64,000 nucleotides of DNA, from positions 1 to 64,000 of the forward strand of contig NZ_JACJST010000017.1 of the NCBI RefSeq assembly GCF_014698305.1, given 5' to 3'. This stretch comes from Anabaena lutea FACHB-196. Lineage in GTDB: Bacteria > Cyanobacteriota > Cyanobacteriia > Cyanobacteriales > Nostocaceae. How positions within the stretch are numbered: position 1 is the first letter of the stretch; each line of letters opens with the position of its first letter. Of this stretch, positions 9,807-59,682 are shown one piece after another. Position numbers and translations under genes: made by a program. The notes below the pieces were generated by a model. That model worked only from the letters and a program-made list of their open reading frames with translations. It had not been told where the DNA came from and made no database searches.

Positions 9807-9974
9807 TACAGCAGAATTCAGGAGTCAGGAGACGCTTCGCAGACCTATGGCTTACGCCACGCTGCGCTATCGGTTCAGGAGACGCTTCGCAGACCTCCGG
9901 TTCAGGAGTAAAACTGGCTTGGTGTCTAGGTTTCAATTTTGATTCTGTACCTCATTGATCTGCAATCTGCTGTA
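9807..9974. mobile_element. MITE family B, copy 1 (168 bp)
   Basis: A 168-bp element with termini TACAGCAGA (9807) and TCTGCTGTA (9966-9974). Inside is the repeated motif GGAGACGCTTCGCAGACC in two direct copies. The element at 49516-49683 is the same length and nearly identical. Terminal TA on both ends suggests TA-target insertion as in IS630/mariner-type elements; this is inference. It abuts the broken adaptor gene. Confidence 0.85.
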
Positions 9975-13832: not shown

Positions 13833-13954
13833 TTTATATGAAATTTCCTATAAAAACAAGTCAGACAATAGCACGAAATATCCCCTGTGCAAAGTCTGAA
13901 GGATAAATTTCAAATTTATCTATTTCGCTCCTATTGATTCAAAGCGATCCGCAA

Positions 13955-14130
13955 AATACCTCCTTGTGCTAAACTACTAAATCTTAGAGTTGGGAAACTT
14001 CGGTGAAATTCCGGGACTGTGCCGCAGCTGTGAGGCAATTTTAGATTTCCGAACCATAGATTTTAGATTGTTGGGGGTTGACTCAGAACCCCAGACTCGG
14101 AAAAACACGGGTAAGAAAATAATCCAAAAT
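13955..14130 (+). promoter_or_regulatory. Cobalamin riboswitch
   Basis: The leader of cobG contains GGTGAAATTCCGGGACTGTG followed by the B12-box-like GCCGCAGCTGTGAGGC, the conserved J6/3 and P6 core of adenosylcobalamin riboswitches. Downstream are a hairpin (GGGGTTGACTCAGAACCCC) and GACTCGGAAAAACACGGGTA. The family represses cobalamin genes when B12 is plentiful. Exact ends are estimated. Confidence 0.85.
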
Positions 14131-14164
14131 CCAAAATTCAAAATCCAAAATTGAGTAAGTCAGA

Positions 14165-15691
14165 ATGCCAACTATAAGGAGTTTATCAAGTTCTGTCTCT
14201 GCGAAGCACAGAGAAGGAGTTTTAATTTTGCTGTCCGCATTTACCGCCTGCCCAGGCTTATTTTACACTACACCTGCCCAAGATGGCATATTGTCTCGCA
14301 TCAGAATACCGGGCGGGAACATGGAGAGTGAACAGTGTTCATTGATCGCAAACATAGCCGATAATTATGGTGGTGGCTATGTAGATGTGACAAATCGAGC
14401 CAATTTGCAAATCCGAGAAATCAAAACCGGGATAAATATTGAAGTTCTCCAGCATTTACAGCAATTGGGTTTAGGTTCTGCCAATCCCAATGTAGACCAT
14501 ATCCGCAACATTATGACCAGTCCCACTGCGGGTATTGATTCCCAAGAATTAATCGATACTCGTCCTTTAGTGAAAGCTTGGGATAATTATATTACAGCAC
14601 ATCCTCATTTAGGCGGACTATCTGCTAAATTTAGTGTTGGCTTTGATGGTGGTGGTAAAGTTTCGGTATTGAATCAGCTTAATGATATTACCTTTGCGGC
14701 TGTGTTGGTTGATGGTAATATTTACTTCCGCCTTTATTTGACTATTGGTGGAAAAGGAGAACCAGCTAGAAATACAGGAATTTTATTAAAACCAGAGGAA
14801 TGTTTACCAGTTTTAGCAGCTTTAGCAGATGTTTATTTACAAAATATAGATTCTCAACGTCAACGTAAACCACGTTTGCGGGAAGTTATCAATAATTTAG
14901 GGATAGAGAATTATCTGCGTTTAGCTTTTACAAGCAAATCCCTTACTTCCCAACCCCTAGTTTGTCATAGCTTTTCCCAATTACCAGCCCAAACAGATAT
15001 GATAACTGTTCCCGCAGACTCAATTGGTATTCATCCCCAAAAACAAGTAGGATTATTTTATATTGGTGTCGTGTTGCCCCTAGGAAGGGTGGAAAGTTCG
15101 CAAATGAGAGGTTTGGGTGATTTAGCAGAAAAATATGGTAGTGGTAATATTAGGCTAACACCTTGGCAAAATTTGCTGATTACCGATATTCCCCAACCAC
15201 AAGTCGTCGAAGTAGAAAGAGAAATTAGCAACTTAGGACTAAGTTATTCTCAGACTAACATTAAAAGTGCATTAGTGGCTTGTTCTGGTAAACGAGGTTG
15301 TGCTGCTTCCGTAACCGAAACTAAAGATCATGCCTTAAAATTAGCAAAATATCTCGAAAATCGGATTACCCTAGATTATCCAGTTAATATTCATTTTAGC
15401 GGTTGTGCGAAATCTTGCGCCCAACATAATCAAGCTGACATTACCTTGCTTGGTGTCAGCATTGAGTCAGAAAATGAAACTTTAGAAGGATATCAAGTTT
15501 ATGTCAGTGACAGTACCTTACAAAAATTTGGACATCAACTTTATGAATATGTAAATTTTAGCGAACTTCCGGCACTAATTGAGCAGATGTTAAAAACGTA
15601 TAAAATACAACGTCTAAATCCTAAAGAAACCTTTAGAGATTTTACCCAACGTGATGCTACCCAACTCAAACAAACAATACATCATAGTTAA
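14165..15691 (+). CDS. cobG: Precorrin-3B synthase
   Basis: 508 residues of the nitrite/sulfite-reductase-like CobG family, which uses a [4Fe-4S] centre and O2 to convert precorrin-3A to precorrin-3B in the aerobic cobalamin route. The sequence has two ferredoxin-like and sulfite-reductase repeats and the cluster cysteines ACSGKRGC and SGCAKSCAQ about 40 residues apart. It is the first gene behind the cobalamin riboswitch. The ATG at 14165 follows the riboswitch by about 35 bp. cobH follows after 50 bp. Its presence argues for an O2-dependent pathway. Confidence 0.9.
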   Translation: MPTIRSLSSSVSAKHREGVLILLSAFTACPGLFYTTPAQDGILSRIRIPGGNMESEQCSLIANIADNYGGGYVDVTNRANLQIREIKTGINIEVLQHLQQLGLGSANPNVDHIRNIMTSPTAGIDSQELIDTRPLVKAWDNYITAHPHLGGLSAKFSVGFDGGGKVSVLNQLNDITFAAVLVDGNIYFRLYLTIGGKGEPARNTGILLKPEECLPVLAALADVYLQNIDSQRQRKPRLREVINNLGIENYLRLAFTSKSLTSQPLVCHSFSQLPAQTDMITVPADSIGIHPQKQVGLFYIGVVLPLGRVESSQMRGLGDLAEKYGSGNIRLTPWQNLLITDIPQPQVVEVEREISNLGLSYSQTNIKSALVACSGKRGCAASVTETKDHALKLAKYLENRITLDYPVNIHFSGCAKSCAQHNQADITLLGVSIESENETLEGYQVYVSDSTLQKFGHQLYEYVNFSELPALIEQMLKTYKIQRLNPKETFRDFTQRDATQLKQTIHHS

Positions 15692-49515: not shown

Positions 49516-49683
49516 TACAGCAGAATACATCCGTCAGGAGACGCTTCGCAGACCTATGGCTTACGCCACGCTGCGCTATCGGTTCAGGAGACGCTTCGCA
49601 GACCTCCGGTTCAGGAGTAAAAATGGTTTGGTGTCTAGGTTTCAATTTAGATTCTGTACCTCATTGATCTGCAATCTGCTGTA
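49516..49683. mobile_element. MITE family B, copy 2 (168 bp)
   Basis: Same termini (TACAGCAGA/TCTGCTGTA), same length and nearly the same sequence as 9807-9974, including two GGAGACGCTTCGCAGACC direct repeats. The close identity over 40 kb suggests recent mobility. The stretch 49684-49871 to the next gene contains only AATCCTGTAAATC tandem repeats. Confidence 0.85.
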
Positions 49684-49871: not shown

Positions 49872-51077
49872 TTACGCACTTCTAAGAGCGACAATTGGGT
49901 CTAACATAGCAGCTTGTCGGGCTGGAAATACACCAAAAATCAAGCCTATACTACCAGATATACCCACAGCGACAGCGATCGCATATAGAGGAAATTGAGG
50001 AGTCAAAGGCGTGAAAAATGCTAACGGTAGAGTTCCCCCAACTCCTAAAATTATTCCCAGTAAACAACCAGAAAGAGATAAAATAATTGCCTCAATCAAA
50101 AACTGCGCTAAAATATCATTCTGAGTTGCGCCAACAGCCTTGCGTAAACCAATTTCTTGAGTGCGTTCAGTCACAGAAACTAACATAATATTCATAATGC
50201 CAATTCCACCTACTAACAAAGAAATGGCAGCAATCAAGGCTAATAATAACGATAAAATACTAGTCACTTGCACCACTAATTCTTGAAACTTTTTATTAGC
50301 GAAAACAGCTATATCTTTTTTACCATGCAGTCGAGAAAGGACATTAGTAATTTGAAAACCTGCGGCACGAATACTCTCTCTATTTTTTGCCGTTACTAAA
50401 ATGTAACTGAGAGGAATATCAGATATTGATCTCCTGCCAACTAACCTATTAGCAAATGTTGTGAGTGGAACAATGACCGTTTGATCTAAATTATCCCCAG
50501 CAAATGCACCTTTTGATTGCAACAAGCCAATAACTTGAAACGATATATTATTAATCATCACTTCTTGCCCCACAGGATTATCATCGCCGAACAACTTCCG
50601 GCTAGTTTCTGCACCTAAAACAGTGACTTGAGCCTGTTGTTGCTGTTGTGTTTGATTAAACATTCTGCCAGTAGCAAGAGTAAGATTCTGGACAGCAAGC
50701 AAATCAGATGTAGTGCCTCTAACAGTTGTGGATGTTAATTTATTTTTAAAGCTAATTGACATTTTCTGCTCATCTACAGGAGCAACTTGGCTAACACTAG
50801 GAACTTGTGTTTTAATTGCTTCTGCGTCTGATAACACCAATTGAGCATCAGGAAATTTCATCCCCTCCTCATCTTCAAAATTACTATATACCGTGAGTTG
50901 ATTTGCTCCAAACGCCTCAAGTTTACCCAACACAAGATTCTGTGCGCCTTGTCCAATACCAATCATACTAATAACAGAAGCATTGCCAATAATTATTCCC
51001 AGCATAGTTAGTCCGCTACGAAGTTTATTAGCAGAAATAGTTGCAAAAGCCATGTTCACACTTTCTAATAAATTCAT
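49872..51077 (-). CDS. MacB-type ABC transporter permease
   Basis: 401 residues. One N-terminal span (NKLRSGLTMLGIIIGNASVI), a large periplasmic MacB_PCD domain (about 45-260) and three C-terminal spans with ERTQEIGLRKAVGATQNDIL form the FtsX/MacB permease fold. No ATPase domain is present; in cyanobacteria the MacB ATPase is usually a separate gene beside the permease, but none lies between 49684 and 52533. It probably acts with the adaptor upstream as a tripartite exporter. Its location suggests, but does not prove, a part in the RiPP cluster. Confidence 0.85.
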   Translation of the reverse strand: MNLLESVNMAFATISANKLRSGLTMLGIIIGNASVISMIGIGQGAQNLVLGKLEAFGANQLTVYSNFEDEEGMKFPDAQLVLSDAEAIKTQVPSVSQVAPVDEQKMSISFKNKLTSTTVRGTTSDLLAVQNLTLATGRMFNQTQQQQQAQVTVLGAETSRKLFGDDNPVGQEVMINNISFQVIGLLQSKGAFAGDNLDQTVIVPLTTFANRLVGRRSISDIPLSYILVTAKNRESIRAAGFQITNVLSRLHGKKDIAVFANKKFQELVVQVTSILSLLLALIAAISLLVGGIGIMNIMLVSVTERTQEIGLRKAVGATQNDILAQFLIEAIILSLSGCLLGIILGVGGTLPLAFFTPLTPQFPLYAIAVAVGISGSIGLIFGVFPARQAAMLDPIVALRSA

Positions 51078-51137
51078 AATTCAAAATCATAAAAAGAGAA
51101 ATTTCCTTCTTTATTTTTCTTTCCTTATTTCTTATTC

Positions 51138-51204
51138 CTCCTGACTCCTGAACCGATAGCGCAGCGTGGCGTAAGCCATAGGTCTGCGAAGCGTCTCCTG
51201 ACTC
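51138..51204. repeat. Dispersed palindromic repeat (MITE B internal unit)
   Basis: CCGATAGCGCAGCGTGGCGT, then AAGCCATAGGTCTGCGAAGC, then GTCTCCTGACTCC: the reverse complement of the internal unit of MITE B. It fills the gap between the adaptor and permease genes. Confidence 0.85.
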
Positions 51205-51210
51205 CTTGCA

Positions 51211-52533
51211 TTAAGATCCCATAGGACGATCAATACCATCAATTAATTGATTAGCTGGTGGTTGAATAAAAACTCGTTCACCTTCAGAAAGTCCGCCCAA
51301 AATTTGCGTTTTATCACCAGAGGTAATTCCTACCTGTATGGGATGAAATTTTGCTTGATTATCTTTGTCTGGTAACAGTACACCCACCTGCCCTCCCTTG
51401 CCAGAAACCACCGCAGCCGAAGGAATTACCAAAGCATTGCGAATTTCATTTACCAGAAAAGTTAACTTGACATTTAGCCCTACCTTGAGTTGATTTTGAC
51501 CTGTTAGTAAAGCTACTTTCACCCGCACAAATGTGACATTTTCTTCCTTAACTCCTCTAGGAGCAATCAAGCGAACTCGGCCTTGAAAAACTTGCTCAGG
51601 AAAAGCATCAAGCCGAATTTCTACAGGCTGATTTTGCTGAATCTGTGCCATATTCACTTCGGGAACTTTAGCTTCTATCTCTAACCCACTCGCTAATTCA
51701 GCAATGGAGGCACTAGTACCCCCTTCATTAGTAGAAACAGAAGTATTTGGTGTTACAAAGTCGCCTTCTTGAGCAAAACGCCGTGTAATTAAGCCAGAGA
51801 AAGGGGCGCGAATGAAAGTATTTTCTAGCTGATTTTCGTAAAATTGCAATTGGGCAGTTGCTTGAGCTACCTCAGCAGCGGCCTTAGTAATTTCTTCAGG
51901 AGGATAGCCAGAAAGTAGTTTTTTCAGTTGTTGTTGAGCCGATATCAGACTAAATTTAGCTTGTTGTAAGTTATCCTTGGCGCTTTGTTCTTCGTTCAAA
52001 GCAGCATCTAAATCATCACGGGATATTGCCCCTTGAGATACAGGATATTCCCTGCGCTTGACTCGTTGAGTGGCTAATGACAAGCGAGATTGAGCTTCCC
52101 GCACTTGGGCTGTGTATTTATTTACATCAGCTTGAGCGATCGCAATTTCTTCTGGTCTATAACCCTTACGCTTTTCTTCTAAATCGGCTTTTGCCTTCAA
52201 TAATAGTGCTTGATACTGATTCACCTGGGCTTGAAAGGCTTGACGCTCCATTTCTGCCAGCAATTTTCCTTTTTGGACAGAACTGCCTTCATCTATATAG
52301 AGTTTAGCAATTCGACCTGCTTCTCTCGGTCCGATATTAATTTTGCGGACTGGTTGCACGACTCCATTGGTTTTGATTTTAATGTTTAAATTGCTGGTAG
52401 TGACAGGGACTGTCAAATCTGTAATATCATCTTTGCCGGCTTGATACCAATGGCTGAAGTAAGCAATACCCATTCCAGATAAACTAAATACAGTCAGCCC
52501 GATTAGCCAAGGAATCGGATTTTTGATGTTCAT
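51211..52533 (-). CDS. Periplasmic adaptor (HlyD/MacA family)
   Basis: 440 residues. An N-terminal signal anchor (IPWLIGLTVFSLSGMGIAYF), a long helical hairpin (about 100-235, with AQATAQLQFYENQLENTF), lipoyl-like halves and a C-terminal beta-barrel (NALVIPSAAVVSGKGGQVGV). It is the MacA partner of the permease 133 bp downstream. A complete gene, in contrast to the remnant at 9284. Confidence 0.88.
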   Translation of the reverse strand: MNIKNPIPWLIGLTVFSLSGMGIAYFSHWYQAGKDDITDLTVPVTTSNLNIKIKTNGVVQPVRKINIGPREAGRIAKLYIDEGSSVQKGKLLAEMERQAFQAQVNQYQALLLKAKADLEEKRKGYRPEEIAIAQADVNKYTAQVREAQSRLSLATQRVKRREYPVSQGAISRDDLDAALNEEQSAKDNLQQAKFSLISAQQQLKKLLSGYPPEEITKAAAEVAQATAQLQFYENQLENTFIRAPFSGLITRRFAQEGDFVTPNTSVSTNEGGTSASIAELASGLEIEAKVPEVNMAQIQQNQPVEIRLDAFPEQVFQGRVRLIAPRGVKEENVTFVRVKVALLTGQNQLKVGLNVKLTFLVNEIRNALVIPSAAVVSGKGGQVGVLLPDKDNQAKFHPIQVGITSGDKTQILGGLSEGERVFIQPPANQLIDGIDRPMGS

Positions 52534-52733: not shown

Positions 52734-54545
52734 CTAAACCCCATACTGTTCTACCTGCATATTCCACAGAGATGTATATTCACCTCCCAGTTGTAAAAGT
52801 TCTTGGTGAGTGCCATCTTCAATTAAATGACCATCTTTAAGGACTAAAATGCGGTCAGCCATTCGCACTGAGGCTAATCTGTGGGTAATCAGGATGGTAG
52901 TTTTGCCTTCAGCTAGTTCAATAAAGCGAAGGTAAAAATCACACTCGCTGCGGGGGTCAAGGGCTGCGGTAGGCTCATCCAGAAGTAGTAATTGAGCTTG
53001 TTTACGGACAAAAGCACGAGCTAGAGCTAACTTTTGCCACTGTCCTCCAGAAAGTTCTGTACCACCAAACTGTTTACCCAATTGTGTATCTTCCCCACTG
53101 GGAAAATCATCAACTAGTTTGACGATATCGGCTTTTTCTACCGCATATCTGAGAATCTCTCGATGTTCTAGGGCGGCTAGGTTCCCTAAGGCGATATTTT
53201 CCCCTACTGTGAGCGCATAGTGGCCAAAATCTTGGAAAACCCCCGCAATTTGCTGTCGCCACTGTTCTAAATTCAAATCTCTGAGGTCTATACCATCAAC
53301 GATAATCCGTCCTGTGGTGGGGTCATAGAGCCTCGTTAATAGCTTGACTAAAGTAGTTTTCCCCGCGCCATTTTCGCCAACTATGGCTACTGTTTGTCCT
53401 GGATAAAGGGTAAAAGAAATATCCTTGAGTGCTAATCTACCATCTGGGTAGTGAAAATCAACTTTCTCAAAAGTAATACCTGAACGAATCGGAGTGGGGA
53501 TTTTCTCTCCAGGTATGTTTAATACCATTGGGGTGGGGCTATCGAGAAAATTGAAAAACTGCTGCATATAAATCACATTTTCAAACAGATCCAGCCAATG
53601 AGTCACAAATCTTTCTAAATTATTCTGGAAGTAAGTTAATGATTGTACGAATAAAAGGACATTTCCTGGGCTTAACTGTCCTCTAAAAGCTTGCTTGACT
53701 ACCCAATAGAAAGAAAATCCGTTTCCTAATGTACTCAGAATAGCTAAACTAGATGACCAAAATGCTTGTTTGCCCCGCAGATGACGCATAGATTGATGTA
53801 ATGATTGAAAAGCTTGTCCGTAAAGCCCCATAAAAAACGCACCTAGCTGAAATAACCGGATTTCTTTGGCATAGGTGTCAGTGAGCATCACTGTAGTGTA
53901 ATACTCCATTCTTCGAGCTTGAGGACTGTTCTCAAATAAAGTTAGCCAAATAGCCCTGCCATATTGGGAAGAAACCACTATCTGGGGTATAGTTGCGATC
54001 GCAATCACTAGTGGTATCCAAACCGCTAGGGGAATTAGTAGCCCGACTATGACGATTAAAGTCACCAAAGATCGACCTAATTCCACCAAATTCTCCAGTA
54101 AGTTTAACGGTTTATAGCTAACTTGTTGTTGGAGAAGTTGTAGCTCATCATAAAACTCAGCATCTTCAAAACGACTCAGGTCGGAAAAAGTATCGGCTTT
54201 CCGCATTAATAATAAGCTAATGTGAGCCGTTAACTTGTCATTGAGATTTCCTTGAAGGGCGAATATCCAAGGATAGAGAAGCGTTTCTAATAACAAAGCT
54301 CCCACCCATGCTGCTACTAAAGGCCACAACATTGAATCGTCTAATGCTCTACCAGATGTCAAAGCTGTTGCTACAGTATCTACTACTAGTTTGGTAATCC
54401 AAACACTGATAGCAGGAAGAAACCCTTGTAATAAAGTCACAGCAATCAAAAAGACCATTTCTTGAGGTGCTGCTGTCCATAATAAGGGCAAAGAACGAAA
54501 TAAAGCTCTAGTATAGTCTTCAAACCAAACTCTTAAATCGCTCAT
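52734..54545 (-). CDS. ABC transporter with fused membrane and ATPase domains (candidate peptide exporter)
   Basis: 603 residues. Six-span exporter domain (about 1-320), then an ABC ATPase domain with Walker A GENGAGKTT, signature LSGGQWQKLALARAF and Walker B LLLLDEPTAALDP, and the H-loop THRLAS. No C39 peptidase domain is fused at the N-terminus, so it does not cleave a leader itself. It is divergent from the TOMM precursor across a 970-bp region, and exporters of this type are common in such clusters. Assignment to the peptide is by position. Confidence 0.88.
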   Translation of the reverse strand: MSDLRVWFEDYTRALFRSLPLLWTAAPQEMVFLIAVTLLQGFLPAISVWITKLVVDTVATALTSGRALDDSMLWPLVAAWVGALLLETLLYPWIFALQGNLNDKLTAHISLLLMRKADTFSDLSRFEDAEFYDELQLLQQQVSYKPLNLLENLVELGRSLVTLIVIVGLLIPLAVWIPLVIAIATIPQIVVSSQYGRAIWLTLFENSPQARRMEYYTTVMLTDTYAKEIRLFQLGAFFMGLYGQAFQSLHQSMRHLRGKQAFWSSSLAILSTLGNGFSFYWVVKQAFRGQLSPGNVLLFVQSLTYFQNNLERFVTHWLDLFENVIYMQQFFNFLDSPTPMVLNIPGEKIPTPIRSGITFEKVDFHYPDGRLALKDISFTLYPGQTVAIVGENGAGKTTLVKLLTRLYDPTTGRIIVDGIDLRDLNLEQWRQQIAGVFQDFGHYALTVGENIALGNLAALEHREILRYAVEKADIVKLVDDFPSGEDTQLGKQFGGTELSGGQWQKLALARAFVRKQAQLLLLDEPTAALDPRSECDFYLRFIELAEGKTTILITHRLASVRMADRILVLKDGHLIEDGTHQELLQLGGEYTSLWNMQVEQYGV

Positions 54546-55514
54546 TAATTAAACCTTATTTTTTATAAAATGTTAGATTATTGTCCGATTTCAAAAGATT
54601 TGATATTTTCTGACTAATAGCCGGGTTTCTCACTCTATAAGAGTCTATTTCTCAAGAGTAAAATATTCAGGCATCAAAATTCTCTCTCTCCTGGACTTTA
54701 GCAGCAATCAGTCGCGTCCAAGTTGATGAGAGTTTTTTTTGATTCTGCTATCTATTACTTTAATACTTTACTTTTGAAAAACTTTATTCTCCACTTCTTA
54801 GGGATGAATATATCAAAAATAGTAAAATTTCTTCTATACATAATTTTTACGTGTAAAAAAACACAATTAAGTCGATGTACGCTAGATCATTAAAGGATCA
54901 TGAGATACCTGACCTGGTATTTTTAGCTGTCTACTAAGAGGTAAGGTAGTATTACTACTTTACTATAGTAGTAACTATAAAGAAATAGAACCAAGCTTTT
55001 AAATCAGCCATAAGCATTATTTTAAATTGGCTTTAACTGTAAATTAACTTTTTATAACCAGAGATTTATTCATCCTTAAGACAATTGATTAAATGGCGTT
55101 CTACTCTATTAAAAGGACAATAATACTACTTAAGAAAGAAGTAAATCTGACAGTAAAAGATATTCTGATAAGAGTTAGATAAGTAAAAAAGACATAATTT
55201 ACGACGCTAACAAGAGCAAGATTTTTCTTAAAGACAAGGTTTGAAGGAATATAAATCCCCTCTGGGAGTTACCAGCACTGACCAGAAAGTGATTTTGACC
55301 TTTTATGAACTAGTGAAATTCTGAATATGAGACTTAGTGTTTTTGTTTAACTATACTTGGATGGGGATGATAGTTAGGCATTAACGGTTGTCTTCTTTTC
55401 TGGTAATTATTGACCTTCGCTCGTTCAAAAACTGATGCTTTAACGAAAAATAGTTAACTCAAAAACAGATTTGCAAACAGCTGATTGAATTCAAATTAAA
55501 AGGAGTAAGTGACA
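54546..55514. other. Long AT-rich promoter region between exporter and RiPP precursor
   Basis: 969 bp. No second precursor, no repeat and no gene were found. It is very AT-rich (TATAAAATGTTAGATTATTG, ACATAATTTACGACGC) and contains promoter-like TTGACC...-type elements, such as TATTGACC at 55407. It must hold the promoters for both the exporter and the precursor, so a long leader RNA of the precursor is possible. Confidence 0.5.
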
Positions 55515-55883
55515 ATGCTTGCAGAAAAAACATTAACCCAACCAACTATAGAAATGCATTTGGTAGATCAAGCAGACAAACTAGAACAACTTCTGTTGTC
55601 TGATGAGGAAATAGCAGCTTTAGAAAAATTAGCAATGTCAGGAGTATTTGACTCGGAAACCACCCAAAGATGGTTTGCTAATTGCGGCGGATGTGTTGGC
55701 TGTGTTGGCTGTGTTGGATGTCGTGGCTGCCGTGGATGTGGTGGATGTGGCTGCCGTGGATGTGGATGTCGTGGCTGCCGTGGATGTGGTGGATGTGGTG
55801 GATGTGGTGGATGTAAATTTAGCAGTGACGGAACAGTATCAGGCGTGATCGAGGAAACTGATGATTTCGGATTTGGATACTAA
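55515..55883 (+). CDS. Thiazole/oxazole-modified microcin precursor peptide with 16-Cys core
   Basis: 122 residues. ATG 55515 is chosen because AGGAG lies 9 bp before it; an in-frame GTG at 55509 is too close. Leader residues 1-56 are acidic and helical (LEQLLLSDEEIAALEKLAMS). The core 57-100 has 16 cysteines spaced C-x-G-C, with V, R or G at x and two shortened C-G-C steps (C78-C80, C83-C85). Every cysteine after the first is preceded by glycine. A follower of 22 residues ends DDFGFGY. The period-3 Cys core recalls heterocycloanthracin-type precursors. The DNA is a 9-bp tandem repeat. Confidence 0.85.
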   Translation: MLAEKTLTQPTIEMHLVDQADKLEQLLLSDEEIAALEKLAMSGVFDSETTQRWFANCGGCVGCVGCVGCRGCRGCGGCGCRGCGCRGCRGCGGCGGCGGCKFSSDGTVSGVIEETDDFGFGY

Positions 55884-55972
55884 CTAAACCTGGAGAAAGA
55901 ACTGCAATTGATTAATTTTAGAAACCGAGCTTTTTGAGTTTAGAGCCACAAAATCTGGCTGGAAAAGCTGAT

Positions 55973-56020
55973 AAAAACCCTGTTTTTACACTTTTTTTGG
56001 TTAGCAAAAACAGGGTTTTT
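55973..56020 (+). terminator. Strong hairpin between precursor and modification genes
   Basis: AAAAACCCTGTTTTT (55973-55987) and AAAAACAGGGTTTTT (56006-56020), a perfect 15-bp stem with an 18-nt loop, A-run before and T-run in the 3' arm. It should limit read-through from the precursor into the enzyme genes and so keep the peptide in excess. Confidence 0.85.
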
Positions 56021-56081
56021 AAATTTTCACCTTTTCACAAATTGCCACTTATAGCAGCATTCAACTCCTGAAACAAAGCCA

Positions 56082-57215
56082 ATGAAATTAAATGATGATA
56101 AGCGGCTACGTCTACTAGAACACGTCGTCATTAACGTGATACCGTCAGACTGCAATGGCGAAGAAAGTATGATCTTCAATACGACGCGACGAACCCTGAG
56201 AGTAAAGGGTCAAGCTCTGCATGATGTGGAAAGTCTTGTTTTACCTTTACTAGACGGCTCCCGAACAATAGGAGAAATCCGAGCTACGATTGGCGAAAAG
56301 TTGACAGATTCTTCAGTCAATCAATGTTTAGAGTTTTTGATGGACAATCGCTTAGTGGAAGAGTATCTAGAGGATACAAGCGATTTAGATAGTCGTGCTT
56401 ATTTACTTCCTCAAATCAGCCTTTATCATGAGTTAGGCTTTGACCAAAAGGATGCTCAGAAAAACTTAGCCAACGCTAGAATTGCTATTTTTGGACTGGG
56501 AGGTTCGGGACTGATAGCAGCAATCAACCTGGCTACTGCTGGGATCGGTTTTCTTCGTTTGTGCGATGATGCCTACACAATTCCGTCGGATTCCCTGATG
56601 ATGTCAAGCTCGGTATTGAATAAAAGCGGTGCATTTCGAGGTGTGGAAGCGGCTCGACAGATTGAGTCAATTGGCGGAGTAACCCGAACTGAGATTGTGA
56701 CAGAGCCTTTAACTGACGACGCAACAGTTAATCCTTTGCTGGATGACGTTGACCTTGTGATTGTTGCTACTGATGCCGTATCTGTGAATCTAGCCTATCG
56801 TCTGAACAGACTATGTCTGAAGATGCAGCGCCCATTGCTACCAGGTGGAGCGGCTGGTGTGGAGGGAACTGTTGGTCCGCTGGTTTTTTCCAAGGACAAA
56901 CCCTGCTATCTCTGCTATCGAATGCGGTCTATGGCCTGTTCCAAGCTGCCAGAAGCGGAATTGGCGGTTGAGCAGTTTCTGAACCGAGAACGGCGTTCTC
57001 AACCACGGCTGCGGGAAAATTTGCCCATAGCCCAGATGTTGGTGGGTAGTTATCTAGCTCTTGATGCCGTGAAGATGATCCTCGGTTTAGCGATCGCAAC
57101 TGATGGTAAATTACTACATCTAGACTTGCTCGGCACAAAGCTCACTCACAACGTTGTCCTCAAAAAACCAGGTTGTCCCCATTGTTCACCAAAACAGGTG
57201 ACAGGAAACAGGTGA
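56082..57215 (+). CDS. TOMM E1-like partner protein with N-terminal RRE (cyclodehydratase C-type protein)
   Basis: 377 residues. Residues 1-100 form a winged-helix-like domain (MIFNTTRRTLRVKG, IGEIRATIGEKL) that fits the RiPP recognition element. Residues about 130-330 are an E1/ThiF-like domain with GLGGSG at 138-143. Two CxxC pairs (C275/C278 and C365/C368) form the usual zinc site. In azoline biosynthesis this partner binds the leader and activates the YcaO enzyme. It lacks a fused YcaO domain. It is first of the three modification genes. Confidence 0.85.
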   Translation: MKLNDDKRLRLLEHVVINVIPSDCNGEESMIFNTTRRTLRVKGQALHDVESLVLPLLDGSRTIGEIRATIGEKLTDSSVNQCLEFLMDNRLVEEYLEDTSDLDSRAYLLPQISLYHELGFDQKDAQKNLANARIAIFGLGGSGLIAAINLATAGIGFLRLCDDAYTIPSDSLMMSSSVLNKSGAFRGVEAARQIESIGGVTRTEIVTEPLTDDATVNPLLDDVDLVIVATDAVSVNLAYRLNRLCLKMQRPLLPGGAAGVEGTVGPLVFSKDKPCYLCYRMRSMACSKLPEAELAVEQFLNRERRSQPRLRENLPIAQMLVGSYLALDAVKMILGLAIATDGKLLHLDLLGTKLTHNVVLKKPGCPHCSPKQVTGNR

Positions 57216-57271
57216 CAGGTGACAGTGTAAAAAGTCAAATCTCAGCACTGTTTATGATAGGAGTGAACAAA

Positions 57272-58582
57272 GTGAATACAGCAATTGCTAGTCCCCGCTG
57301 GCGCGATTTAGTCAGCCCCCATACTGGCATCATTCGAGCCATAGATAGATTCACCAAGCCTTATACAGAGTTCGAGTTTCCTGTTTTATGGCAAGCCGAA
57401 TTAGCAAATTTCCAACTTCGCAAACAACAGGATGATTTACGCTACGGTGTAGGCAGGGGCATGACTGATGAACAAGCAATTTTCGGTGCTGTTGGCGAAG
57501 CTATAGAGAGATACTGCGGTGGTATTGTTGATTATGGGCAATTGATTGTTAGTAGCTACGAAGAATTAGGTAATCGTGCCGTTCCTCCTTCAGTTTTTTC
57601 CTCTTTTTCTGACCAACAATACTCTGACCCAAATTTCCCTTTTCCAGCGTTCAATCCCACAACGCAGACTTCGTGGATGAATGCCCTTTCCTTAGTCAGC
57701 AACCAACCGGTTTTAGTCCCAACATTCTTGGTTTATTTGGACTGGGACGGTGATCAACCAGGAGATCATATTTTACCTGTTACTTCTAACGGCATGGCTA
57801 GTGGACCTTCTCTAGAGTTTGCTGCTTACCGTGGTTTGTGCGAGTTAATTGAGCGCGATGCTTTCATCATTACTTGGTTAAACCGCCTACCTGCTCCGCG
57901 TATCTATTTCGACCACCGACCAGGAATAGAGACAGAAATTGCCCGCCACTACGCTCGATTTGGAATTGAGTTAGTTGCCTTCGATTTAACTACTGATATT
58001 CAAGTCCCGGTTGTCATGGCTATGTTAATTGACCATTCGGGCAAAAGTCCGGCTGTGTCCACTGGTTTGGGATGTCATCTGGATGGGAAAACGGCTTTTC
58101 ACAAGGCGATATTTGAAGTTTGTCAAGCCCGCTTTGGTGACATAGAACGTATGGCTACCGGCGTTGGGGCTAATCTCCATCAATATAGTGATGTTAAGTA
58201 TTTGGATGATCACAACGCTTTTTTCTACACAACTGCTCGGCTGGGGGAGTTGGATTTCTTATTTCACCATGACCAATCCTGCAAAGTTGAAGATTTACTA
58301 ACTTACGAATCTGGGTCTGAAGCAGAAAAATTGCAATCAGTAATTAGCAGACTCCATTCAGTTGGTTCTGAACCCTATTTAGTAGAAATTACAACTCCTG
58401 ATATTGCGTCCCTTGGTTTCCGCGTAGTGCGGACTTTAGCCAGTGAGTTAGTGCCTATATATTTTGGTTATGGACAAGAGCCTCTGGGGACTCGGCGTTT
58501 ATTCGAGGTTCCAGAAAGGTTGGGTTATGGTGGCCGACGTACCGAAAATGACCTCAATCCTTGCCCACATCCTATGGCGTGA
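57272..58582 (+). CDS. YcaO-domain cyclodehydratase (D protein)
   Basis: 436 residues from GTG 57272, selected because AGGAG lies 8 bp in front; ATG 57254 is the alternative. YcaO ATP-binding and catalytic signatures are AIFGAVGEAIERYCGG, EFAAYRGLCELIERDAFI and TAFHKAIFEVCQARFGD. It ends NPCPHPMA, i.e. the PxPxP C-terminus characteristic of azoline-forming YcaO enzymes. The reaction is ATP-dependent cyclodehydration of Cys to thiazoline. With the Cys-only core, thiazoles are the expected product. It follows the E1-like gene by 56 bp. Confidence 0.9.
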   Translation: MNTAIASPRWRDLVSPHTGIIRAIDRFTKPYTEFEFPVLWQAELANFQLRKQQDDLRYGVGRGMTDEQAIFGAVGEAIERYCGGIVDYGQLIVSSYEELGNRAVPPSVFSSFSDQQYSDPNFPFPAFNPTTQTSWMNALSLVSNQPVLVPTFLVYLDWDGDQPGDHILPVTSNGMASGPSLEFAAYRGLCELIERDAFIITWLNRLPAPRIYFDHRPGIETEIARHYARFGIELVAFDLTTDIQVPVVMAMLIDHSGKSPAVSTGLGCHLDGKTAFHKAIFEVCQARFGDIERMATGVGANLHQYSDVKYLDDHNAFFYTTARLGELDFLFHHDQSCKVEDLLTYESGSEAEKLQSVISRLHSVGSEPYLVEITTPDIASLGFRVVRTLASELVPIYFGYGQEPLGTRRLFEVPERLGYGGRRTENDLNPCPHPMA

Positions 58583-58938
58583 ACTACCATGCCGTGAGAC
58601 GGACAGGGCTTCCCAATTCATCGGGAATAGCCTCCAGGACTTCGTAGTTCTATTGGTCTGACATTCCCTCCAAGGGCAGGAGTCCTGATTCCCAAGACCC
58701 AAATCTTTTTCTTGCGACACTTACCTATTAGCTTGGTTTTCGCTTACGGCATTGGTGGTCAAAATCTTAAATATCTTACCAGAAAATCCTGGGGATTCGT
58801 CATGTATCTGATATTTGTTTTTGCTGTGCAAAAAATCAATCCCAGATGCAATCCTCATCCTCCGCTCTCTATCTCCACCCTACGAGTACGTTGAGAGTAG
58901 GGACTTCCGCGATCCTTTAAAAAGAGGAAATTAGAGCA
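58583..58938. other. Intergenic region between YcaO and SagB genes, possible decayed insertion
   Basis: 356 bp with hairpin-like ATGCCGTGAGACGGACAGGG and CCAAGGGCAGGAGTCCTGAT. It looks like a piece of a dispersed element (perhaps the end of an IS200/IS605-type sequence), but no intact frame supports this. SagB has its own GAGGAA site at about 58924, so read-through from YcaO may be needed. Confidence 0.4.
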
Positions 58939-59682
58939 ATGCACAAAGCCAATGAACCCCTAGAGTTAGCTCTTCTCTATCATTTGAACTCTCCAGTCCC
59001 GAAAAGTTATGTCAAGCGTGTTCCGGCTACTGAACTGCGGTATCTGCCGGAGGCTCCTTTTCTAGAACTGCCGAAAGCACCACACGATAATCCGCTGTCT
59101 GAGCTTTTAGAGAGGCGTTCTTCTGTGCGATCATTTGAGAATCAGGTGATGCCACTCACCTCATTAGCTCAACTGCTCGACGCAGGATGTGGACTCAACG
59201 GGCTGCGTGAAGTGGATGGTCAATCCTATGAAGCTCGCAACTCTCCTTCTGCGGGAGGACTTTATCCCATTGAGATGTTCGTATCTACACAAGCGGTGGC
59301 AGGTCTGGCAGCCGGATTATATCACTATGAACCTCGCGGACACGGGCTTCATCGGGTTAGTGATGCAGTGCCGACAGATTTTTTAGAACCATTATTACAG
59401 CAGGATTACTTTGTGAATGCCAATGCTCTTTTTGTGTTGACATCGGTTTTTATGCGCTCAATGTCTAAATACGGTGCGCGGGGCTACCGCTTTGCGCTGT
59501 TGGAAGCTGGTCATCAAGCTGAAAATATATGTTTAATGGCTGTGCAATTGGGACTTGGCAGTCTTTGTATAGGTGGATTCCATGACATAAGTTTAAATAC
59601 TATTTTGGGTATTGACGGGGAACGTCATGCTGCTATTTACTGTGTTGCGGTCGGCACTAGTGCTATAAATATGAGCGCCTAA
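58939..59682 (+). CDS. SagB-type FMN-dependent azoline dehydrogenase
   Basis: 247 residues of the nitroreductase-like SagB family. LLERRSSVRSFENQVMPLTS is the FMN-binding start, RNSPSAGGLYPIEMFV and LYHYEPRGHGLHRV are typical, and the central RFALLEAGHQAENICLMAVQLGLG carries the catalytic Lys/Tyr-region equivalent. It oxidises thiazolines to thiazoles. AGAGGAAATTAGAGCA precedes ATG 58939. Third modification gene of the cluster. A bidirectional terminator follows. Confidence 0.9.
   Translation: MHKANEPLELALLYHLNSPVPKSYVKRVPATELRYLPEAPFLELPKAPHDNPLSELLERRSSVRSFENQVMPLTSLAQLLDAGCGLNGLREVDGQSYEARNSPSAGGLYPIEMFVSTQAVAGLAAGLYHYEPRGHGLHRVSDAVPTDFLEPLLQQDYFVNANALFVLTSVFMRSMSKYGARGYRFALLEAGHQAENICLMAVQLGLGSLCIGGFHDISLNTILGIDGERHAAIYCVAVGTSAINMSA

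Follow-up and report, generated by a model that had tools for sequence, protein, structure and literature searches.

A putative azole RiPP gene cluster with a conserved leader and a variable cysteine-rich core in Anabaena lutea FACHB-196 and related cyanobacteria

A group of five genes in Anabaena lutea FACHB-196 (52734-59682; table 1) probably encodes a linear azol(in)e RiPP (TOMM) pathway, a reading to which we attach a probability of roughly 0.86. It comprises an ABC exporter, a precursor peptide, an E1-like protein, a YcaO cyclodehydratase and a SagB dehydrogenase, and both these enzyme types and their architecture are of a kind already known for azole RiPP pathways. Positions refer to the window, i.e. 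the whole stretch of DNA analysed (64,000 nucleotides of contig NZ_JACJST010000017.1). A first-pass annotation had proposed this set of five, with the exporter divergent, and a TOMM identity; the predicted open reading frames agree with it, the C, D and B proteins pass curated cut-offs, and the sequences support the TOMM reading. The most likely product, as predicted from the precursor and enzymes, would be a polythiazole peptide built on Cys alone (-20 Da per ring).

Table 1. Features of the cluster, with positions in the window.
Feature	Position	Strand	Remarks
ABC exporter, 603 aa	52734..54545	-	divergent transcription; no C39 peptidase domain found
Precursor ribosome-binding site AAGGAG	55500..55505	+	AGGA invariant across 21 upstream rows
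Precursor peptide, 122 aa	55515..55883	+	leader 1-56, core 57-100, tail 101-122
Conserved leader, codons 1-56	55515..55682	+	mean majority-residue frequency 0.84 in 23 rows
Cys/Gly/Arg core, predicted thiazole region	55683..55814	+	16 Cys, no Ser/Thr; 24-bp and 9-bp tandem units
Acidic C-terminal tail	55815..55880	+	length and end (FG plus Y/H/N) kept, remainder less so
Inverted repeat, 16 bp, 18-nt loop, T-rich 3' arm	55972..56021	+	between precursor and E1
E1-like C protein, 377 aa	56082..57215	+	probable N-terminal RRE, ThiF/MoeB-like domain, two CxxC
YcaO cyclodehydratase (D protein), 436 aa	57272..58582	+	GTG start; C-terminal end NPCPHPMA
SagB-type dehydrogenase (B protein), 247 aa	58939..59682	+	Lys-Tyr pair K177/Y178

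Distribution and limits of the cluster

A scan with the E1 profile, seeded by two short E1 motifs and therefore open to the escape of divergent members, retrieved 21 named loci, with titles including Anabaena, Trichormus, Dolichospermum, Nostoc, Sphaerospermopsis and others, all genera of filamentous cyanobacteria. When all open reading frames of at least 70 aa in the window and these 21 loci were clustered (shorter genes escape), the widespread families were E1 (22 of 22 loci, by construction, E1 being the search query), YcaO (22), SagB (21), the precursor (21 by leader search, 17 by clustering) and the ABC exporter (20). Both loci devoid of an ABC ortholog stop at contig ends, and one of them is also without a precursor. 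The cluster of Dendronalium phyllosphericum has no SagB; a strong ortholog lies on another contig of that genome (E 1.2e-144), and the dehydrogenase thus seems to be retained even when unlinked. In 10 of the 21 named loci, the E1 and YcaO genes share 1-8 bp.

All other families occur in at most 6 of the 22 loci, so that the conserved set holds no immunity or protease gene of at least 70 aa; indeed, no such family was consistently linked to the cluster in the window and the 21 named loci. This bears out the first-pass annotation, which had recognized neither gene, and the leader and YcaO, which it had suggested as queries for a neighbourhood search, recur in 21 and 22 of the 22 loci, respectively, together with E1, SagB and the ABC gene. 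TldD/PmbA is a type of protease known from microcin B17. Five matches of this type were found in the organism's own genome, and these proteins could act in trans on the leader.

Among 100 searched genomes of relatives (own included), a YcaO ortholog was detected in 13, at 73-100% identity, the other YcaO matches in these genomes reaching at most 39% identity and many being of the long fused type. In a sample of the phylum, E1 was retrieved at E <= 1e-30 from 16 of 386 genomes, all within the window's family, and in a sample of the order E1, precursor and YcaO (limits 1e-40, 1e-8 and 1e-80, respectively) were each found in 23 of 388 genomes, which are the same genomes according to a comparison of the lists by eye. 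Presence is patchy even at the level of a single genus (g28), seven genomes of which carry the cluster and four of those listed (G234, G294, G299 and G309) do not. The co-occurrence of these genes can thus be read from the genomes themselves, as can the gene set, the family assignments and the pairing of a conserved leader with a variable, all-Cys core.

Layout of the genes

The exporter gene faces away from the precursor and the three enzyme genes. The protein matches an MsbA-like model (272.6 bits, below that model's cut-off of 602); in Pfam, ABC_tran is matched at 118 bits and the transmembrane model only at E 0.57, and the Pfam scan found no peptidase domain. HlyD- and MacB-like genes (49872-52533) were considered as a further part of the export system and rejected, being present in 6 of the 22 loci, in one elsewhere.

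The inverted repeat downstream of the precursor is a possible terminator or attenuator. It is also present in four other loci (L045, L046, L050 and L051), the remaining loci having other or no inverted repeats, and it was not called by a consensus terminator scan.

YcaO and SagB are separated by 356 bp (58583-58938), and by 359 bp in Anabaena catenula. Just a 42-bp part of this spacer recurs elsewhere in the own genome (86%), and an insertion remnant is one possible origin of the spacer. The gap is only 18 bp in 7 of the 20 named loci in which SagB is linked (range 18-359), and from this difference one might suspect that the cluster is decayed or silent in Anabaena lutea FACHB-196. We regard this as highly improbable, as all five frames are intact and conserved, and as the leader differs from that of Anabaena catenula, which shares the wide gap, by 5 of 168 nucleotides and by no amino acid.

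Elsewhere in the window, a cobalamin riboswitch scores just over the gathering score (13950-14190), two repeats with the same consensus and a period of 27 lie 40 kb apart (9825-9908 and 49534-49617), and CTCCCCAT stands in ten tandem copies at positions 4-83.

Modifying enzymes

The E1-like protein exceeds the curated cut-off of TIGR03882 (50.2 versus 36.9 bits) and stays under that of the narrower SagC model (44 bits versus 188). The structure model of the full protein is poor (pLDDT 52.8). A second look with VIA at the model of its N-terminal part ranked RREs first, with that of the F protein PbtF as best structural match, and Foldseek on that same model gave no significant match. The N-terminus is probably a leader-binding RRE, its predicted fold being RRE-like; of the features initially ascribed to this protein, the two CxxC pairs are present and the RRE is best described as probable. 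The protein (56082-57215) also matches phrog_19840, a PHROG of unknown function, over residues 53-371 (E 3.4e-20), a similarity suggesting that E1-like proteins of this kind are encoded by some phages or prophages.

The YcaO protein scores 318 bits against a cut-off of 219 for TIGR03604, YcaO models for other functions remaining far under theirs, and its residues 8-434 align with LynD and TruD. The PxPxP motif with which it had been said to end is indeed there (PCPHP), followed by two further residues (MA) that make up the actual terminus. As for phylogeny, in which a non-azoline placement of the YcaO had been named as a refutation, a tree of 18 rows (E. coli and R. jaguaris removed as long branches, second own-genome YcaO absent) places the window YcaO apart from the TfuA-linked YcaOs and, with low support (70/95), next to Haloplanus, Nonomuraea and Paracoccus. 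The deep branching of this tree is weak, and a tree of 21 rows including E. coli and R. jaguaris gave no resolution. SagB is over its curated cut-off, and its Lys-Tyr pair (K177/Y178) is presumably catalytic.

Other YcaO genes were encountered in these genomes. The second YcaO of the own genome (C10:99414-100427) lies in a frame of 770 aa and belongs to the long fused type. In two related genomes, TfuA adjoins YcaO and similar genes lie upstream (L126, 1867-4525; L127, 1925-4538), TfuA being confirmed in the former and judged by eye in the latter; these are clusters of the thioamide type.

YcaO enzymes also install thioamides or other backbone changes, and the TfuA-YcaO pairs of related genomes (L126) are consistent with such a role for the window YcaO in place of azoline formation. 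Several observations nevertheless make this scarcely credible here: a scan of eight window proteins, among them the two neighbours of YcaO, found no TfuA, E1 and SagB are the kinds of partner that azole pathways have, the protein carries the PxPxP end, the models for other YcaO functions score far under their cut-offs, and in the weak tree it does not join the TfuA YcaOs. The TfuA-YcaO thioamide RiPP identity was rejected for want of TfuA in that same scan.

Precursor peptide and predicted product

The precursor has the leader and the Cys/Ser/Thr-rich core that characterize TOMMs. In an alignment of 23 rows (the window and the named loci supplying 22, a further genome one), a leader of 51 or 56 aa is followed by a core of 32-52 aa with 9-20 Cys and a net charge of +4 to +8, and then by a tail of 19-27 aa (22 aa in 17 of the 23 rows) with a net charge of -2 to -6. 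The pooled cores (961 residues) consist mainly of Gly (406), Cys (344) and Arg (121), with 4 Ser and no Thr; Gly precedes 272 of the 344 Cys, and the spacing between Cys is 3 in 272 of 321 intervals. Within this set of sequences, the composition of the core is maintained while its length and order change. Mean column conservation, highest in the leader, is 0.76 in the core, where Gly and Cys dominate, and 0.62 in the tail. As its columns are less conserved than those of the core, the tail offers no evidence for a strict recognition site; it retains its length, its acidity and its end (FG followed by Y, H or N, with F120 and G121 invariant in 23 of 23 rows) rather than its letters.

Compared with Anabaena catenula, 27 of 132 nucleotides and 9 amino acids differ in the core, and 4 of 66 nucleotides and 3 amino acids in the tail; some of the changes in the core could stem from repeat slippage. 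Each of the 13 cluster-bearing genomes searched has a precursor, next to the cluster in all but G031, where it lies on a short separate contig, and second matches were limited to a piece of the same gene in G042 and a weak, stop-bearing stretch in G037. One named locus (L052, 6752-7629) has two precursors in tandem, with 20 and 12 core Cys.

The leader had been described as unlike NHLP and Nif11 leaders, and indeed neither model was matched by the precursor in NCBIfam or Pfam up to E 1; an NHLP/Nif11 RiPP identity was accordingly rejected. Within the same limit, TIGR03601 was not matched either, the thiocillin model alone appearing in NCBIfam (E 0.43).

In the azol(in)e pathway, the E1-like C protein would bind the leader through its RRE and present the core to YcaO. 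Using ATP, YcaO would cyclize each Cys onto the preceding carbonyl to give a thiazoline (-18 Da), and SagB would oxidize the rings to thiazoles, with a loss of 20 Da in all per Cys, for up to 16 here. The leader would then be cut off by a protease encoded elsewhere, the TldD/PmbA type being a candidate, and the peptide would leave via the ABC exporter, a protein that may confer self-protection as well. Heterocyclization, leader removal and export are predictions from sequence, as would be any bioactive or antibacterial role. The calculated mass of the full-length peptide is 12551.48 Da unmodified, 12263.32 Da with every Cys as thiazoline and 12231.06 Da with every Cys as thiazole; fully modified peptides starting at residue 56 or 57 would have 6015.95 or 5901.91 Da.

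The same enzymes might instead yield a partly cyclized or thiazoline-only peptide, whose free Cys would bind metal, making it a metal binder and not a bacteriocin. The very high density of Cys, their CxxC-like spacing and the absence of a widely shared immunity-type gene of at least 70 aa are compatible with this, and the first core Cys, which follows Asn in 20 of the 23 rows, may differ from the others. However, the presence of SagB in 21 of the 22 loci, and elsewhere in the last genome, argues for full oxidation, and we judge this alternative unlikely. For the polythiazole pathway, a small gene set with limits drawn from 22 loci and a core made mostly of Gly, Cys and Arg would provide a clean series of substrates for the study of YcaO on long repeats.

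A related cluster in Paracoccus

Searching plasmids by tblastn with the YcaO protein pointed to Paracoccus denitrificans (39% identity over 97%). On the plasmid of strain HAMBI_2443, a single record in which the genes are open reading frames read from unannotated sequence, an ABC gene, a 130-aa precursor, a radical-SAM C-methyltransferase, E1, YcaO and SagB follow the gene order of the window cluster, the added methyltransferase (TIGR03975, 780 bits) being inserted. The leaders are homologous, E1 is 33% identical end to end, YcaO 39% and SagB 38%, and the Paracoccus YcaO ends in PCPHP-LA; the ABC gene stands in the same divergent place, a likeness of placement. By contrast, the Paracoccus core has abundant Ile, Val and Gln and sparser Cys, and by eye the two cores are unrelated.

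The two leaders align in hhalign with E 8.2e-9 and a score of 52.8, as high a score being obtained in 0 of 200 shuffles (best 22.0) and the next best of 64 small open reading frames scoring 20.2. No leader homolog was found among the small open reading frames of seven YcaO loci (L114, L115, L119-L122 and L125), nor among 43 in Nonomuraea, where E1 and YcaO are fused. The new element is a set of leader, E1, YcaO and SagB with homologs, on sequence comparison, in a Paracoccus cluster whose core is unrelated. Accordingly, the same module for leader recognition seems to be combined with different cores in the two phyla, and the Paracoccus relative offers a natural system in which to ask if a given leader-E1 pair can work with cores that are unrelated.

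A broader proposal would be that a single module of leader, E1, YcaO, SagB and exporter operates in two phyla with unrelated cores, and that the cyanobacterial product, a chain of up to 20 thiazoles, all derived from Cys, with an acidic, fixed-end tail, serves its producer in metal handling or signalling rather than in killing competitors. This we find rather doubtful as a whole.

Comparison with known systems

Cyanobactin enzymes resemble the window cluster in a YcaO domain that aligns end to end with LynD and TruD, and in an N-terminal RRE-like fold found among the VIA rows; they differ in that C and D are fused. Identity between the window YcaO and the long-frame YcaOs of related genomes is only approximately 27-32%. 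A cyanobactin identity was rejected, the C and D proteins being separate open reading frames and not a fused heterocyclase; no PatA or PatG protease was found in the eight window proteins scanned, and there is no further widely shared family. Cyanobacterial bacteriocins of groups I-VII are reported with a C39-peptidase ABC transporter (Wang 2011, PMC3140520), unlike the window exporter, in which no peptidase domain was found.

Heterocycloanthracins, as reported (Haft 2009, PMC2674419; Cox 2015), share with the window precursor a long Cys-Xaa-Xaa, Gly-rich core that varies by repeat units, together with a conserved leader and a conserved extreme C-terminal motif. Their enzyme, however, is a fused, truncated C-D protein acting with an F protein, and the precursor is often distant, whereas the window encodes C and D separately and has its precursor gene next to them. 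Among structures, the putative RRE of the window E1 is nevertheless best matched by that of an F protein, PbtF. A heterocycloanthracin identity was rejected on account of the separate C and D frames and the lack of a TIGR03601 match.

The closest counterpart is anabaenasin, a TOMM family that was named in a genome-mining study of 2015 and left uncharacterized there (Cox, Doroghazi and Mitchell 2015, PMC4603692), the only work on this family among the literature matches listed. Sequence features suggest that the window cluster probably belongs to it: the discrete C and D proteins and Gly/Cys-rich precursor given there for anabaenasin are found here, along with the unusual C protein and the cyanobacterial host. 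The anabaenasin D protein is reported to be most similar to those of haloazolisin and mobilisin, and in Anabaena sp. 90 a transposase, said not to be conserved in the family, is reported between C and D (PMC4603692). No record titled Anabaena sp. 90 is among the 21 named loci; in these, by contrast, the gap between E1 and YcaO is at most 293 bp, and in six loci of one related genus, at least two of which are named-locus contigs, there is no room for a transposase between the two genes. With the cluster placed there, a family so far named yet uncharacterized would gain gene limits and predicted masses.
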